From Bacteroidales bacterium (lineage in GTDB: Bacteria; Bacteroidota; Bacteroidia; Bacteroidales; WCHB1-69): a stretch of DNA of 34,835 nucleotides. This document shows, piece after piece, positions 9 to 34,124 of the stretch; within the stretch, counting starts at the first letter, position 1, and each line of letters opens with the position of its first letter. The stretch lies in NCBI GenBank assembly GCA_016282395.1, contig JAEEKL010000014.1:1-34835 (forward strand), given 5' to 3'. The translations under genes were made by a program, and so were the position numbers. A model generated the notes under the pieces. The model was not told the DNA's origin, ran no database searches, and worked only from the letters and a program-made list of their open reading frames with translations.

Positions 9-16
9 TACTTTTG
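9..16 (+). promoter_or_regulatory. Bacteroidota -7 box (TACTTTTG) for the sigma/WG gene
   Basis: TACTTTTG matches the TAnnTTTG -7 element. It lies 24 bp before the ATG at 41 and overlaps the possible TTG start at 14, which argues for the ATG. The -33 region is outside the window. Confidence 0.5.
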
Positions 17-40
17 CGTCGTCATTATAAAACAGCGAAA

Positions 41-1477
41 ATGCAGGGGAAACAGTTTTGTTCGCAGGCGTATCAGCGGAACATCTGTAAGATGGTCGGG
101 GTGTGCTGCCGCTATGTGGGCGACCGCGCAGTGGCCGAGGACCTCGCGCACGAGGCGTTCCTCAAGGCCATCGAGAAGTCCGGAACCTACCGCCGCCTCG
201 GCAGTTTCGACGGCTGGTTAATGCGCATCAACCTCAACACCACGATGGATTACCTTCGGCGGCAACCGCAATTTCTGTCGATGGATGACGATACCGTGGG
301 GACGCAATTTATCGCGTCCGCATCCGACATTGTAGAGACGTGCCATGGCGCGTCTCTACAGGACGAATCCGATGAAACGTGCATCTCCGCATCCGACCTC
401 ACCGAATCCGAAATCCTCGACGCCATCTGCGCCCTGCCCGACAAACAACGGACCGTTTTTAACCTGTATGTTTTTGAAAACCAATCTCATGCGAAAATCG
501 CGGAGTCATTGCAAATCGGGGTGCGCAGTTCCAAACGGTACCTCTCGGAGGCGCGGTCACAGCTGCAAATCGCCCTGAACAACCTTGTCCGCCACAAAAA
601 ATCTGGACTTATGATACTGCTCCCCTTTCTCCCCTGGAAAACGCACGCCATCGACCGTCTCTGTCGTGCGAAGCTGAAACACCTGGCGTTGTCGCCCGCC
701 GCACCGTCGCCCTTGTCCGCCGTCAACTGGACCGCAGCCCCGAAGCCGGGTGTCTGGATGGCCGTCACCGCCGCAAAAGCCCCCGCCATCGCCACGGGCG
801 TGGTCGCCACCGCCGTGACGGGTTCCGTCATTGCGTGGCAGGCGCAACCCGCACCCACAGACCCGACCCCGCAGGAAACGGCTGTAACCACGTGTGTTGC
901 AACCGATTCCGCAACCGTCAATGCCGATACCGCCGTCGTAGAGACGTGCCATGGCGCGTCTCTACCGACCGATCCCATACCCGATGCCGATACGCGCCAT
1001 GGCACGTCTCTACAGGAACCCCCATATCCTCAACAGCAAGTAAAAGGAACCGAATCATCTGTTTCACCATTGCCCGAAACGCCCGCATCCAACGTAGTAG
1101 AGACGTGCCATGGCGCGTCTCTACCTCCTCACCATAGCCTGAGAAAGTTCGAGCGCAACGGCTACTACGGTTTCCAAGACGAAAACGGAAACATCGTGGT
1201 ATATCCGAAATACACGGACATACGGCCGTTTGACGAATACCGGACCGGCTGGGCAATGGTGGAGATATTCGGGTTCAAGGGGTTTGTGGATAGCGCTAGC
1301 AAAGAGGTCGTGCACCCGCAATACGACGAAATCGGCAAGTTCGGTCTCTACCGCGACGGTTGCGCTCTCGTGCGGAAAGGGAACTTTTACGGTTTCATTG
1401 ACACTACAGGCAAGGAGGTGGTGCCCGTGACGCGCAAAAAGTCTGAATTAATTAAAATTCAACATAAATTACCATAA
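41..1477 (+). CDS. ECF-type sigma-70 factor fused to a membrane segment and WG-repeat domain
   Basis: Residues about 10-80 look like sigma region 2 (DLAHEAFLKAIE, then GWLMRINLNTTMDYLRR). Residues about 119-182 look like region 4, with LPDKQRTVFNLYVFE and a helix-turn-helix ending SSKRYLSEARSQL. A hydrophobic stretch at about 238-268 could be one membrane span. It is followed by a Thr/Pro-rich linker and, from about 366 to the end, a WG-repeat region (YYGFQDENG, FKGFVDSASKEVV, FYGFIDTTGKEVV). I infer a membrane-tethered sigma factor whose C-terminal part senses something outside the cytoplasm. Four palindromic DNA elements lie in frame inside the gene: one in the region 2/4 linker and three in the Thr/Pro linker. 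The ATG at 41 is chosen because an in-frame TTG at 14 overlaps a promoter box. The gene appears GC-richer than its neighbours. The next gene follows after 80 bp with no obvious promoter. Confidence 0.8.
   Translation: MQGKQFCSQAYQRNICKMVGVCCRYVGDRAVAEDLAHEAFLKAIEKSGTYRRLGSFDGWLMRINLNTTMDYLRRQPQFLSMDDDTVGTQFIASASDIVETCHGASLQDESDETCISASDLTESEILDAICALPDKQRTVFNLYVFENQSHAKIAESLQIGVRSSKRYLSEARSQLQIALNNLVRHKKSGLMILLPFLPWKTHAIDRLCRAKLKHLALSPAAPSPLSAVNWTAAPKPGVWMAVTAAKAPAIATGVVATAVTGSVIAWQAQPAPTDPTPQETAVTTCVATDSATVNADTAVVETCHGASLPTDPIPDADTRHGTSLQEPPYPQQQVKGTESSVSPLPETPASNVVETCHGASLPPHHSLRKFERNGYYGFQDENGNIVVYPKYTDIRPFDEYRTGWAMVEIFGFKGFVDSASKEVVHPQYDEIGKFGLYRDGCALVRKGNFYGFIDTTGKEVVPVTRKKSELIKIQHKLP
331..360 (+). 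repeat. In-frame palindromic element, copy 1
   Basis: A 30-bp near-perfect palindrome with one mismatched pair: arms TGTAGAGACG and CGTCTCTACA around a CCATGG core. It reads VETCHGASLQ in the host gene, in the linker between sigma regions 2 and 4. The 12-mer TCCGCATCCGAC occurs at 317-328 and again at 386-397, one on each side; the 69-bp offset keeps frame. Confidence 0.9.
938..965 (+). repeat. In-frame palindromic element, copy 2
   Basis: Identical over 28 bp to copy 1 (arms GTAGAGACG and CGTCTCTAC, CCATGG core). It again encodes VETCHGASL in the same frame, in the linker after the putative membrane span. The 10-mer ATGCCGATAC lies on both sides (921-930 and 984-993), 63 bp apart. Confidence 0.9.
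991..1014 (-). repeat. Palindromic element, copy 3, inverted with a degraded left arm
   Basis: The core and right arm read CGCGCCATGGCACG then TCTCTACA, the reverse complement of the other copies. The left arm has been replaced. The translation is TRHGTSLQ, still in the host reading frame. Confidence 0.75.
1097..1124 (+). repeat. In-frame palindromic element, copy 4
   Basis: The same 28-bp palindrome as copies 1 and 2, encoding VETCHGASL just before the WG-repeat region. All four copies have codons starting in the same register. Confidence 0.9.
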
Positions 1478-9145: not shown

Positions 9146-9174
9146 TGTAGAGACGTTTCACGAAACGTTTTTAC
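9146..9174. repeat. Intergenic palindromic element, variant core
   Basis: The left arm TGTAGAGACG is the same as in the sigma-gene palindromes, but the core is TTTC/GAAA and the right arm is worn to CGTTTTTACA (two mismatches). It lies between the ruvC end and the transketolase promoter. Confidence 0.65.
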
Positions 9175-11433: not shown

Positions 11434-11504
11434 AGATAACCTCCTTTCATTTAATAGGTTAGAAAACTATTTTATTACATCTTGGCGCAAAATTTTACAG
11501 CTGG

Positions 11505-11512
11505 CAAAGATA
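11505..11512 (-). promoter_or_regulatory. -7 box (TATCTTTG) for corA
   Basis: The minus strand reads TATCTTTG, 72 bp before the corA ATG. No clear -33 TTTG at the usual distance. Confidence 0.45.
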
Positions 11513-11545
11513 CATTTTTTTGCTGTTTAGGGGCGACTGAAATAA

Positions 11546-14477: not shown

Positions 14478-14571
14478 CAAAATATATTGCATCAATACCG
14501 TTCCGTAATTTATATTAACTCAAAGATGGATTCAACAGGCAAAGTAAAAAATAGGCAATACGTAAAAAATG

Positions 14572-14579
14572 TATTTTTG
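14572..14579 (+). promoter_or_regulatory. -7 box (TATTTTTG) for the polysaccharide cluster
   Basis: TATTTTTG lies 42 bp before the flippase ATG. It is divergent from the box at 14470, so about 95 bp holds both promoters. Confidence 0.55.
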
Positions 14580-14621
14580 CCAGTTTTTTTATGAGGAAAA
14601 AACGACTGCATTAAATAGGGA

Positions 14622-20474: not shown

Positions 20475-21041
20475 TTAGAACGTGTAGCCGACTTTGGCTT
20501 CGATGCCGCCGCTGAACTCTTTCACGTTCGGGAACGTGCGGAAGAAGAAACCGCCCGTGAAGGAAAACGCCTTCACACGGAAACCGCCGGCAATGGTGGA
20601 ATACAGCCCAATGCCGTGCTTGTTTTCCTCAACGTAATAGTATGTGGGATTGCCCCATGGGTCAAGGTTGTTGGGATCAAAATAGTCGTATTCGTTTGTC
20701 CAAAAATGGAAACCGACACCGGCTGCAATGTTGATGAGCGGTTTCAGCTTGCGGCCTCTGTCAAAATAGTGGCGGTAGTTGAGGAAAAGAGGAATTTCCT
20801 GGAATGTGCCGGAGTTTAGACCATAGCCGACACCGATGCCGATGTTGTCGGTCCCCTTGATGGAGATGCCGTTGATGAAAACGCCTGTCATGCCGGCGTT
20901 CTTTCCTACGAAAAAGCCATATTCGTTGATGAAATTGTAGGCGATTTTTTTCTCTTGTTGCTCCTGGGCGGATAGTGTGCCCAACCCGCAAAGGAAGGCA
21001 ATGAATAACACTGCCAAGCATTTTAATGAATTTCTTTTCAT
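20475..21041 (-). CDS. Outer-membrane beta-barrel protein
   Basis: A signal peptide (MKRNSLKCLAVLFIAFLCG, then LGTLSAQ) precedes 165 mature residues with alternating polar/hydrophobic strands and many aromatic residues (IGIGVGYGLNSGTF, LINIAAGVGFHFW). The protein ends in Phe (KVGYTF), the usual outer-membrane insertion signal. This fits a small 8-stranded porin-like barrel; no family name can be given with confidence. It has its own promoter and is convergent with the polysaccharide cluster. Confidence 0.75.
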   Translation of the reverse strand: MKRNSLKCLAVLFIAFLCGLGTLSAQEQQEKKIAYNFINEYGFFVGKNAGMTGVFINGISIKGTDNIGIGVGYGLNSGTFQEIPLFLNYRHYFDRGRKLKPLINIAAGVGFHFWTNEYDYFDPNNLDPWGNPTYYYVEENKHGIGLYSTIAGGFRVKAFSFTGGFFFRTFPNVKEFSGGIEAKVGYTF

Positions 21042-21065
21042 AATTTTTTAATTTTTTTGAGGCGG

Positions 21066-21073
21066 CAAAAATA
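21066..21073 (-). promoter_or_regulatory. -7 box (TATTTTTG) for the beta-barrel gene
   Basis: The minus strand reads TATTTTTG 24 bp before the ATG at 21041, in the GGCAAAAATACA context shared with other promoters here. The rest of the 285-bp divergent spacer holds no gene that I can support. Confidence 0.55.
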
Positions 21074-21296
21074 CATTTTTTTTGATAGCATATAAATCGG
21101 TTCTTCCCAATTGTCATGCACATGCCGTTATCTTGAACAACAACGAGTATTTGTTGATAATGTCACCGGAAGCCCGTTTCTCCGTTGGAGTGTATTTTTT
21201 TCTATTGATTTTTGAAAATGCAACGCTCTGTCTCACCCTTTTTTGTTCCTGTATCGTTTCACCACTTCGAAAATGCACAATTTTGTAACTTTTTTT

Positions 21297-29743: not shown

Positions 29744-29773
29744 ATAGAGATGGTGTTACACATCGTCTCTACA
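29744..29773. repeat. Intergenic palindromic element, third core type
   Basis: An imperfect 29-30 bp palindrome whose right arm ends CGTCTCTACA, as in the sigma-gene elements, with an inner ATGTG-type core and a mutated left arm (ATAGAGATGG). It lies between two minus-strand genes. Confidence 0.5.
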
Positions 29774-33860: not shown

Positions 33861-33893
33861 TTTGGTTTTGTATTAAAAAAAAATGTATTTTTG
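33861..33893 (+). promoter_or_regulatory. Promoter of the second Cys-rich lipoprotein
   Basis: TTTG (33861-33864) as -33 element and TATTTTTG (33886-33893) as -7 box, 21 bp apart. The ATG is 24 bp downstream. Confidence 0.6.
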
Positions 33894-33917
33894 CAACCTC
33901 ATTTAAATTAAAAAAAC

Positions 33918-34124
33918 ATGAAAAAATTAATGGCAATTGTTGGTGCTACTTTAATGTTAGCCGGTGTTGCAACTTCTTGCAGCAAAACTTGTGAATGTGT
34001 GACCACTGTTGGTGGTATTTCGACCACTTCTGAAGTTACGATTAAAAGCGGTAAATGTACTGACATGAACGCTGAAGTCACTAACATGGGTATCACCACC
34101 AAAACCGAATGCAAGAAAAAATAA
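33918..34124 (+). CDS. Tiny Cys-rich lipoprotein, paralogue 2
   Basis: A 68-residue lipoprotein with the lipobox VATSC. Its mature part (48 residues) begins CSKTCECV and ends ECKKK, so the cysteine pattern and ends match paralogue 1, while the middle (TTVGGISTTSEVTIKSGK) has diverged. It has its own promoter and a strong terminator 21 bp after its stop. Function is unknown; the shared Cys frame suggests a disulfide-stabilised fold. Confidence 0.8.
   Translation: MKKLMAIVGATLMLAGVATSCSKTCECVTTVGGISTTSEVTIKSGKCTDMNAEVTNMGITTKTECKKK

Follow-up and report, generated by a model that had tools for sequence, protein, structure and literature searches.

The palindrome that lies four times inside a sigma-factor gene of a Bacteroidales bacterium is very probably a double-foot REP, dispersed (as we infer) by REP-associated tyrosine transposases (RAYTs), which keeps its place in genes while its core is replaced, and this is the account that best explains the data as a whole. 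Judged from sequence, both its likeness to double-foot REPs (in structure, in association with RAYTs and in the matching of cores in relatives) and the replacement of cores at fixed coding sites are established. An initial annotation of the window (the whole stretch of 34,835 nucleotides that was analysed) had taken the palindrome for DNA that spreads and not for a conserved protein motif, a view that holds: the arms are kept, the core changes as a block, some homologues are without the element and other genes have been entered.

The host gene and its palindromes

Pfam domains in the host gene (window:50-1474) comprise Sigma70_r2 at residues 8-72, Sigma70_r4_2 at residues 121-172 and WG repeats with their best stretch at residues 373-405, in agreement with the gene content claimed in the initial annotation. 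The four in-frame copies reported in this gene are indeed present (Table 1), three of them intact, 28 bp long and identical (GTAGAGACGTGCCATGGCGCGTCTCTAC) and one inverted with a decayed left arm (GCCGATACGCGCCATGGCACGTCTCTAC), and their reading as VETCHGASL three times and TRHGTSL once (ADTRHGTSL in full) was also correct. Copy 1 corresponds to residues 95-104, between the two sigma regions, and the other three copies precede the WG repeats. As had been noted, the palindrome is open in two of its three frames, the third being closed because of the TAG in GTAG. The arm GTAGAGACG is found 9 times in the window against 0.07 expected, a number reached in 0 of 100 shuffles. Elsewhere in the window (21035-21083, 33876-33924, 11499-11521 and 14564-14594) there is an A/T-rich intergenic repeat around GGCAAAAATACA / TGTATTTTTGCC, which we presume may be a promoter-type motif of Bacteroidota.

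Table 1. Host gene and palindrome copies in the window.
Feature	Position	Strand	Description
Host gene	14..1477	+	Sigma-70 family protein (regions 2 and 4) with C-terminal WG repeats; ORF of 487 aa, TTG start
Double-foot REP copy 1	332..359	+	Core TGCCATGGCG; VETCHGASL; between sigma regions 2 and 4; homologous copies in congeners
Double-foot REP copy 2	938..965	+	Core TGCCATGGCG; VETCHGASL; homologous copies in congeners
Double-foot REP copy 3	986..1013	-	Opposite orientation; arm 986-994 decayed; ADTRHGTSL
Double-foot REP copy 4	1097..1124	+	Core TGCCATGGCG; VETCHGASL
Decayed intergenic copy	9147..9174		Core TTTCACGAAA; right arm with two mismatches; outside the initial annotation
Strongly decayed intergenic copy	29744..29772		Exact arm at 29764-29772 only; outside the initial annotation

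Structure and abundance of the element

The search of the genome and its relatives that the initial annotation had suggested recovered 95 exact GTAGAGACG-N10-CGTCTCTAC sites in the genome of origin (an assembly of 2.5 Mb in 269 contigs, 69% complete) and 0 in a reversed control, and the palindrome is present in 66 of the 100 genomes searched, this one included, with 0 to 237 copies in congeners. A scan of named genomes gave at least 118 stretches with the palindrome; among the 80 matches listed, 47 belong by title to Bacteroidota (including one Balneolia), 22 to cyanobacteria (e.g., Nostoc, Calothrix and Dulcicalothrix) and 11 to others.

The N10 core is almost always palindromic and exists in many families, the CCATGG form being one among many. 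Among 68 copies of the own genome, complementarity is 96-99% at core pairs 2-5 and 53% at pair 1, and the core families include CGCCATGGCA (29 copies), CAAAATTTTG (14), TTTCATGAAA (6) and TTGCGCGCAA (6). With a GT[AG]G 5' foot and a complementary C[TC]AC 3' foot on a long stem, the element has the build of a double-foot REP, whose unit would be a hairpin of 28 bp, or perhaps of 30 bp with a flanking T/A pair, carrying GTAG at the 5' foot of both strands. The copies in the window are directional, owing to a single asymmetric pair (T..G, or C..A when the other strand is read). Among 90 distinct cores, 16 show this asymmetry at their first pair (68 of 274 copies) and 2 have another mismatch there; the asymmetry gives the hairpin a polarity, and in L250 and L252 the copies before and after the RAYT gene point in opposite ways.

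As to target duplications, the 68 own copies have flanking repeats of 2 bp in 3 cases (4.2 expected), of 3 bp in 2 (1.1 expected) and none that are longer, and a 4-bp flank repeat accompanies 3 of 143 copies in public contigs against 0.6 expected, a slight excess. The outward flank favours A, followed by A/G, which resembles a YT^AR site.

Association with RAYT transposases

Two loci fetched by means of the palindrome contain an ORF for a Y1-type transposase (detected with a home-made profile), with the palindrome inside the ORF in L113 (a Balneolia MAG) and beside it in L141 (Dulcicalothrix). The L113 protein has a match in 51 of 100 genomes, and a profile of 18 RAYT proteins (E 1e-8) has one in 56. 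When 30 RAYT loci were fetched by protein similarity alone, a GTAG..CTAC palindrome was found inside the gene or within 350 bp of it in 23, and inside it in 15 (25 and 16 of 32, respectively, if L113 and L141, chosen for their palindrome, are included). The arms are GTAGAGAC in 19 of these 23 loci and different in 4 (e.g., GTAGAGCCG, GTAGGGGCG). At L229, L232, L248 and L252, the same RAYT type is paired with other arms (e.g., GTAGAGCCG, GTAGGGGCG, GTAGGTTTG), so the arm also varies between RAYT lineages.

Palindromes within one RAYT locus are alike (mean 0.85 for 15 pairs in 9 loci, vs 0.55 between loci; 0 of 2000 shuffles). The RAYT gene of G015 has the TTTCATGAAA core on either side and that of G016 has CACGGCCGTG, whereas in G049 CGGTGCACCA stands before, in and after the gene and in G023 the CCATGG core of the window stands inside and after it. 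Fourteen of 62 palindromes lie inside or within 103 bp of a RAYT match (0.08 expected). With each family represented by a single genome (n=40), 13 genomes have both palindrome and RAYT, 1 has the palindrome only, 5 have the RAYT only and 21 have neither, an agreement in 34 (Fisher 8e-6, rho 0.76); the presence of generic Y1 transposases is also associated across families (14/0/17/9, p 0.016), but palindrome number does not follow their number (rho 0.18). Within the genus, the link between the numbers of RAYTs and of palindromes is weak (rho 0.35, p 0.03); PF01797 count is a better correlate of palindrome number (rho 0.59), genome size gives 0.68, and the partial correlation with PF01797 once genome size is accounted for is 0.39.

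Generic Y1_Tnp transposases were rejected as partners of the palindrome. None of 30 loci, each with the best PF01797 match of one of 30 genomes (L016-L045), has a palindrome within 350 bp; one exact copy lies ~1.5 kb from such a locus in G006, and in the own genome neither of the two generic Y1 loci adjoins an arm.

The 18 aligned RAYTs carry the motifs NH[IFV]H, WQ and YIxNNP, in which HxH, WQ, YI and N never vary, HxH follows either N or D, and P is sometimes lost. By profile they match PDB 4er8, a RAYT with a REP hairpin (E 1e-9), and this structure is also the first Foldseek match of a predicted RAYT fold (pLDDT 73; E 7.7e-7), with modest TM-scores (0.41/0.52). The match to NCBIfam REP_Tyr_transpos reaches 44-60 bits, below the curated cut-off of 80, and Pfam Y1_Tnp is weak or absent in 4 of the 5 RAYTs scanned.

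Neither the L113 protein nor the 18-protein profile detected a RAYT of subclass 2.4 in the own genome (0 matches each in the 69%-complete assembly), and the same searches found none in several palindrome-rich congeners, such as G003 (145 copies) and G014 (95). This absence counts against a simple RAYT story; it fits, without being proof of it, a model in which the RAYT is lost and its REPs remain, set out in passages of PMC3686654.

Copies inside other genes

Of the own copies, 66 have enough flank to be placed by ORF length against a random-position control: 14 are inside ORFs of 200 aa or more and 52 outside, whereas 64% of random positions fall inside, so genes are avoided by the palindrome but not closed to it; for public contigs the figure is 25 of 140 copies. 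Two gene-calling models were discarded, one based on hexamers that was too strict (3 of 69 called, with the copies of the window missed) and one based on codons (12 of 69, with two of the three exact copies of the window still missed).

According to Pfam, the hosts include GH97 proteins, a DegT aminotransferase, a molybdopterin oxidoreductase, T9SS sorting tails and Fib_succ_major proteins, together with an NRPS adenylation domain, where the copy directly precedes a LLYTSGSTGTPKG stretch, and an A2M protein, where it is read in the other open frame. Four related proteins (three with Fib_succ_major) have differing cores at a similar place (L260, L268, L272 and L286). Insertion in frame in unrelated genes is thus found here, as it is for the Rickettsia elements discussed below. 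The DegT gene of G010 has a net gain of 30 bp over the empty loop of congeners (40 vs 30 aa), and copy 4 of the sigma gene again adds 10 residues net with respect to G009, the flanks having diverged there. Since the palindrome is open in two of three frames and brings a net 30 bp where filled and empty sites can be compared, insertions in linkers can survive. Thirteen of the 14 in-ORF copies of the own genome are read as VET; no frame bias is claimed, because several of these come from one gene or one paralogue family and the two frames are used 14 vs 11 times in public contigs.

Replacement of cores at fixed sites

One and the same site in the sigma, DegT or GH97 gene can hold unrelated cores in homologues whose flanks are nearly identical. 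When homologous copies with flanks at least 80% identical are compared, the arms are about 97-100% identical, with recurrent codons GTA, ACG, TCT and CTA, while the core and the middle residues change en bloc, and the peptide changes with them from VETCHGASL to VETFHETSL, VETQNFASL and others.

The sigma comparison covers 26 loci (one of them, G031, a fragment), 67 elements with at most 2 mismatches per arm and 119 homologous pairs, which share ancestry and are non-independent. Of the 51 pairs with a flank identity of 0.80-0.97, 28 agree in core, 4 are intermediate and 19 have unrelated cores (<=0.6), with arms ~97% identical; where flank identity is at least 0.97, all 21 cores agree. The place homologous to copy 3 is occupied in congeners by CGCCATGGCA, CACGGCCGTG, CAAAATTTTG or ATGTGCACAT, and that of copy 4 by TTTCATGAAA in G006, G021, G010 and G013. 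A divergent sigma-like paralogue (detected by tblastn) adjoins the sigma locus in L048, L049 and L051-L057, with two more elements ~93-96 bp apart whose cores differ between species (e.g., L054 241 and 334).

Of 20 DegT loci, 15 are empty, one (G061) carries a different insert and 4 are filled; the filled loci have four cores between them, of which two are decayed. Judged by eye, the filled loci of G000, G006 and G013 have extra flanking residues in common, and for this reason one insertion seems to have been re-cored.

Twenty-six GH97 loci were aligned (L347-L350, from other families, and matches without a locus being left out), of which 24 have sequence at the site, G024 and G002 being the exceptions: 17 are filled with six core types, 1 is degenerate and 6 are without the element. 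On a tree of the protein minus the linker (17 taxa), at least 10 core changes are required against a shuffled mean of 9.6, with 1670 of 2000 shuffles at or below the observed value, and the core type is therefore without phylogenetic signal. Local flanks give no hint of transfer between alleles (the observed value is reached in 1181 of 2000 permutations). The GH97 loci are the best match per genome and, as some genomes have two or three GH97 genes, a few of the copies compared may be paralogues; the strongest pairs hold regardless, namely G000 vs G006, with proteins 97% identical and different cores, and G010 vs G021, with left flanks identical over 45 bp and different cores. Per-genome counts of CCATGG and TTTCATGAAA cores, set by eye against the cores at the sites as a measure of the donor pool, are suggestive for GH97 and contrary for copy 4 of the sigma gene in G013.

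Where GH97 homologues lack the element, their linker is shorter by only about one residue, so that at this site the element replaces native linker and is no clean addition. Four congeners (L324, L326, L332 and L346) have a near-identical native-like linker (DSTIQQINNIT or close) in place of the REP, although they stand apart in the genus. A second, unrelated insertion of ~28 residues (residues 216-242 of L273/L321) is present in some GH97 homologues and absent in others.

Mechanism and alternative explanations

Dispersal would be carried out by cognate HuH/Y1 RAYTs of subclass 2.4, which would recognise the single-stranded hairpin through the GTAG foot and a family-specific core, cut beside the hairpin and insert it at a site resembling YT^AR, leaving no target duplication. 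Within genes the element stays where it is, while its core is seen to be replaced by that of other REP families. The agent that we favour for this replacement, with a confidence that falls a little short of even, is a RAYT that would join another hairpin between the shared arms.

There is a real possibility that the cores are switched instead by ectopic gene conversion or template switching, carried out by host enzymes between copies with the same 9-bp arms, RAYTs having only made the copies. This would account for the one chimeric core, TTTCATGGCG in the GH97 gene of G018, in which two families are joined at CATG, for the base after the right arm in GH97, which varies together with the core (A for CCATGG, C for TTTCATGAAA, both in G000/G006 and in G010/G021), and for the switched cores of palindrome-rich congeners without a detected RAYT, such as CAAAATTTTG in the sigma gene of G014; the title of a 1988 review reportedly asks whether REPs evolve by gene conversion. 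On the other hand, nine shared bases are little for homologous recombination, and, apart from that single clear chimera, switched cores are nearly always whole families.

It is rather unlikely that the sites are hot spots at which an element is precisely lost and another family is later inserted in the same target, with no direct exchange. The target-like YT^AR context would suit such a process, as would the homologues without the element (15 of 20 loci in DegT, 6 of 24 in GH97), but the flanking residues common to three DegT loci point to one re-cored insertion, and neither member of the sister pairs G000/G006 and G010/G021, whose flanks are almost identical, is empty.

A conserved motif, VETxxxxSL, selected as a peptide is highly improbable and, as a full explanation, refuted, although a secondary use of the peptide is possible. 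According to the initial annotation, such a motif would be recognised by the same peptide at the same places in orthologues with synonymous changes in the DNA. The first part is observed, since VETxxxxSL stands at the same place in many orthologues, even in distant congeners where some of the DNA is altered (VETPCTASL, VETLSTPSL), but the DNA behaves in the opposite way to synonymous drift: it is the conserved level, with invariant third positions in the arms and a palindromic core, while the middle of the peptide changes, and drifted forms are seen in a few distant congeners. Moreover, the genome has 95 copies, most of those with enough flank (52/66) lie outside ORFs of at least 200 aa and the other open frame is used in some genes. 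Equally improbable is a MITE of a DDE transposon with GTAGAGACG terminal repeats, which would be a multicopy inverted repeat as well, given that the 68 own copies have no target duplication, that the cores are interchangeable and that the element is linked to RAYTs.

Significance

A tentative, wider interpretation of the RAYT-dispersed double-foot REP is a cassette exchange of REP for REP, in which RAYTs (or short conversion) would continually replace the hairpins of fixed coding sites by other families, because all families share one 9-bp arm pair. If this is true, the marked genes would be standing acceptor sites, in which VET-xxxx-SL is swapped from a genome-wide core repertoire faster than species diverge, and the exchange would constitute an unrecognised way to diversify protein linkers. 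As far as can be read from the genes, REPs add and change peptides in a sigma factor as well as in enzymes predicted from sequence (GH97, DegT aminotransferase, NRPS adenylation domain).

REPs are widespread in bacteria; in the passages of PMC3686654 on this subject, Nunvar et al. consider the mechanism of class switching open to speculation only. Homologous coding sites with near-identical flanks and differing cores, together with one chimera, constitute a natural record of the switching step, and there is a set of RAYTs with a core of their own; on these grounds the mechanism becomes testable.

Comparison with known systems

By description, the element can be likened to the small dispersed repeats of Nostoc, which Elhai et al. 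in 2008 reportedly presented as very small, hairpin-forming and dispersed, with compensatory changes; both are tiny dispersed hairpins. The initial annotation had drawn a parallel with the Rickettsia palindromic elements, which are likewise in-frame palindromes that add peptide and are set apart by description; some of them are much longer. The Rickettsia elements are CGTC-tagged and have no known dedicated transposase, according to passages of PMC3733652, and the terminal CGTC tag defined there is missing from the present palindrome, which ends in GTAG/CTAC and has CGTC only inside the arm, so that a double-foot REP of RAYT subclass 2.4 is the closer parallel.

The suggestion that the family had no description in Bacteroidota coding regions is not supported, since double-foot REPs are known from Bacteroidetes (PMC6006769, in part) and intragenic REPs in frame (in RAYT genes as well as others), like class switches at RAYT loci, are already in print. 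The literature searched, which consisted largely of passages, yielded no account of cores being often replaced at fixed coding sites while the arms stay constant; the listed matches to the arm word and those to GTCTCTAC combined with palindrome or repeat were unrelated by title, and the encoded peptides had no match.

Intragenic REPs tagged with GTAG or CGTC, in frame in many genes, are described in passages of Di Nocera et al. 2013 (PMC3733652), which also mention 'different REPs' near the same site in recB of two Xanthomonas species. In-frame insertion and differing REPs at one site are thus common to that work and to the present one, in which the replacement itself is analysed. Double-foot REPs of TnpA_REP subclass 2.4 (RAYT group 4) are reported from Cyanobacteria and Bacteroidetes in the relevant parts of Quentin et al. 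2018 (PMC6006769), and they share with our element the GT[AG]G foot and its complement, the long perfect stems and the type of RAYT motif; their REPs flank the RAYT gene and lie in frame inside it, as was found here in relatives (23 of 30 unselected loci, 15 of them inside). In comparison with what those parts report, the element described here occurs in frame many times across unrelated genes, combines a single arm pair with numerous interchangeable cores, and has its cores replaced at fixed sites. Finally, the 'orthoswitch' of REP classes at RAYT loci, as presented in passages of Nunvar et al. 2013 (PMC3686654) and Nunvar et al. 2010 (PMC2817692), also places different REP classes at orthologous positions by a mechanism that those authors call unknown; there, the REPs flank the RAYT gene and the changes are regarded as mutations of these REPs, whereas here dispersed copies inside genes swap whole cores.
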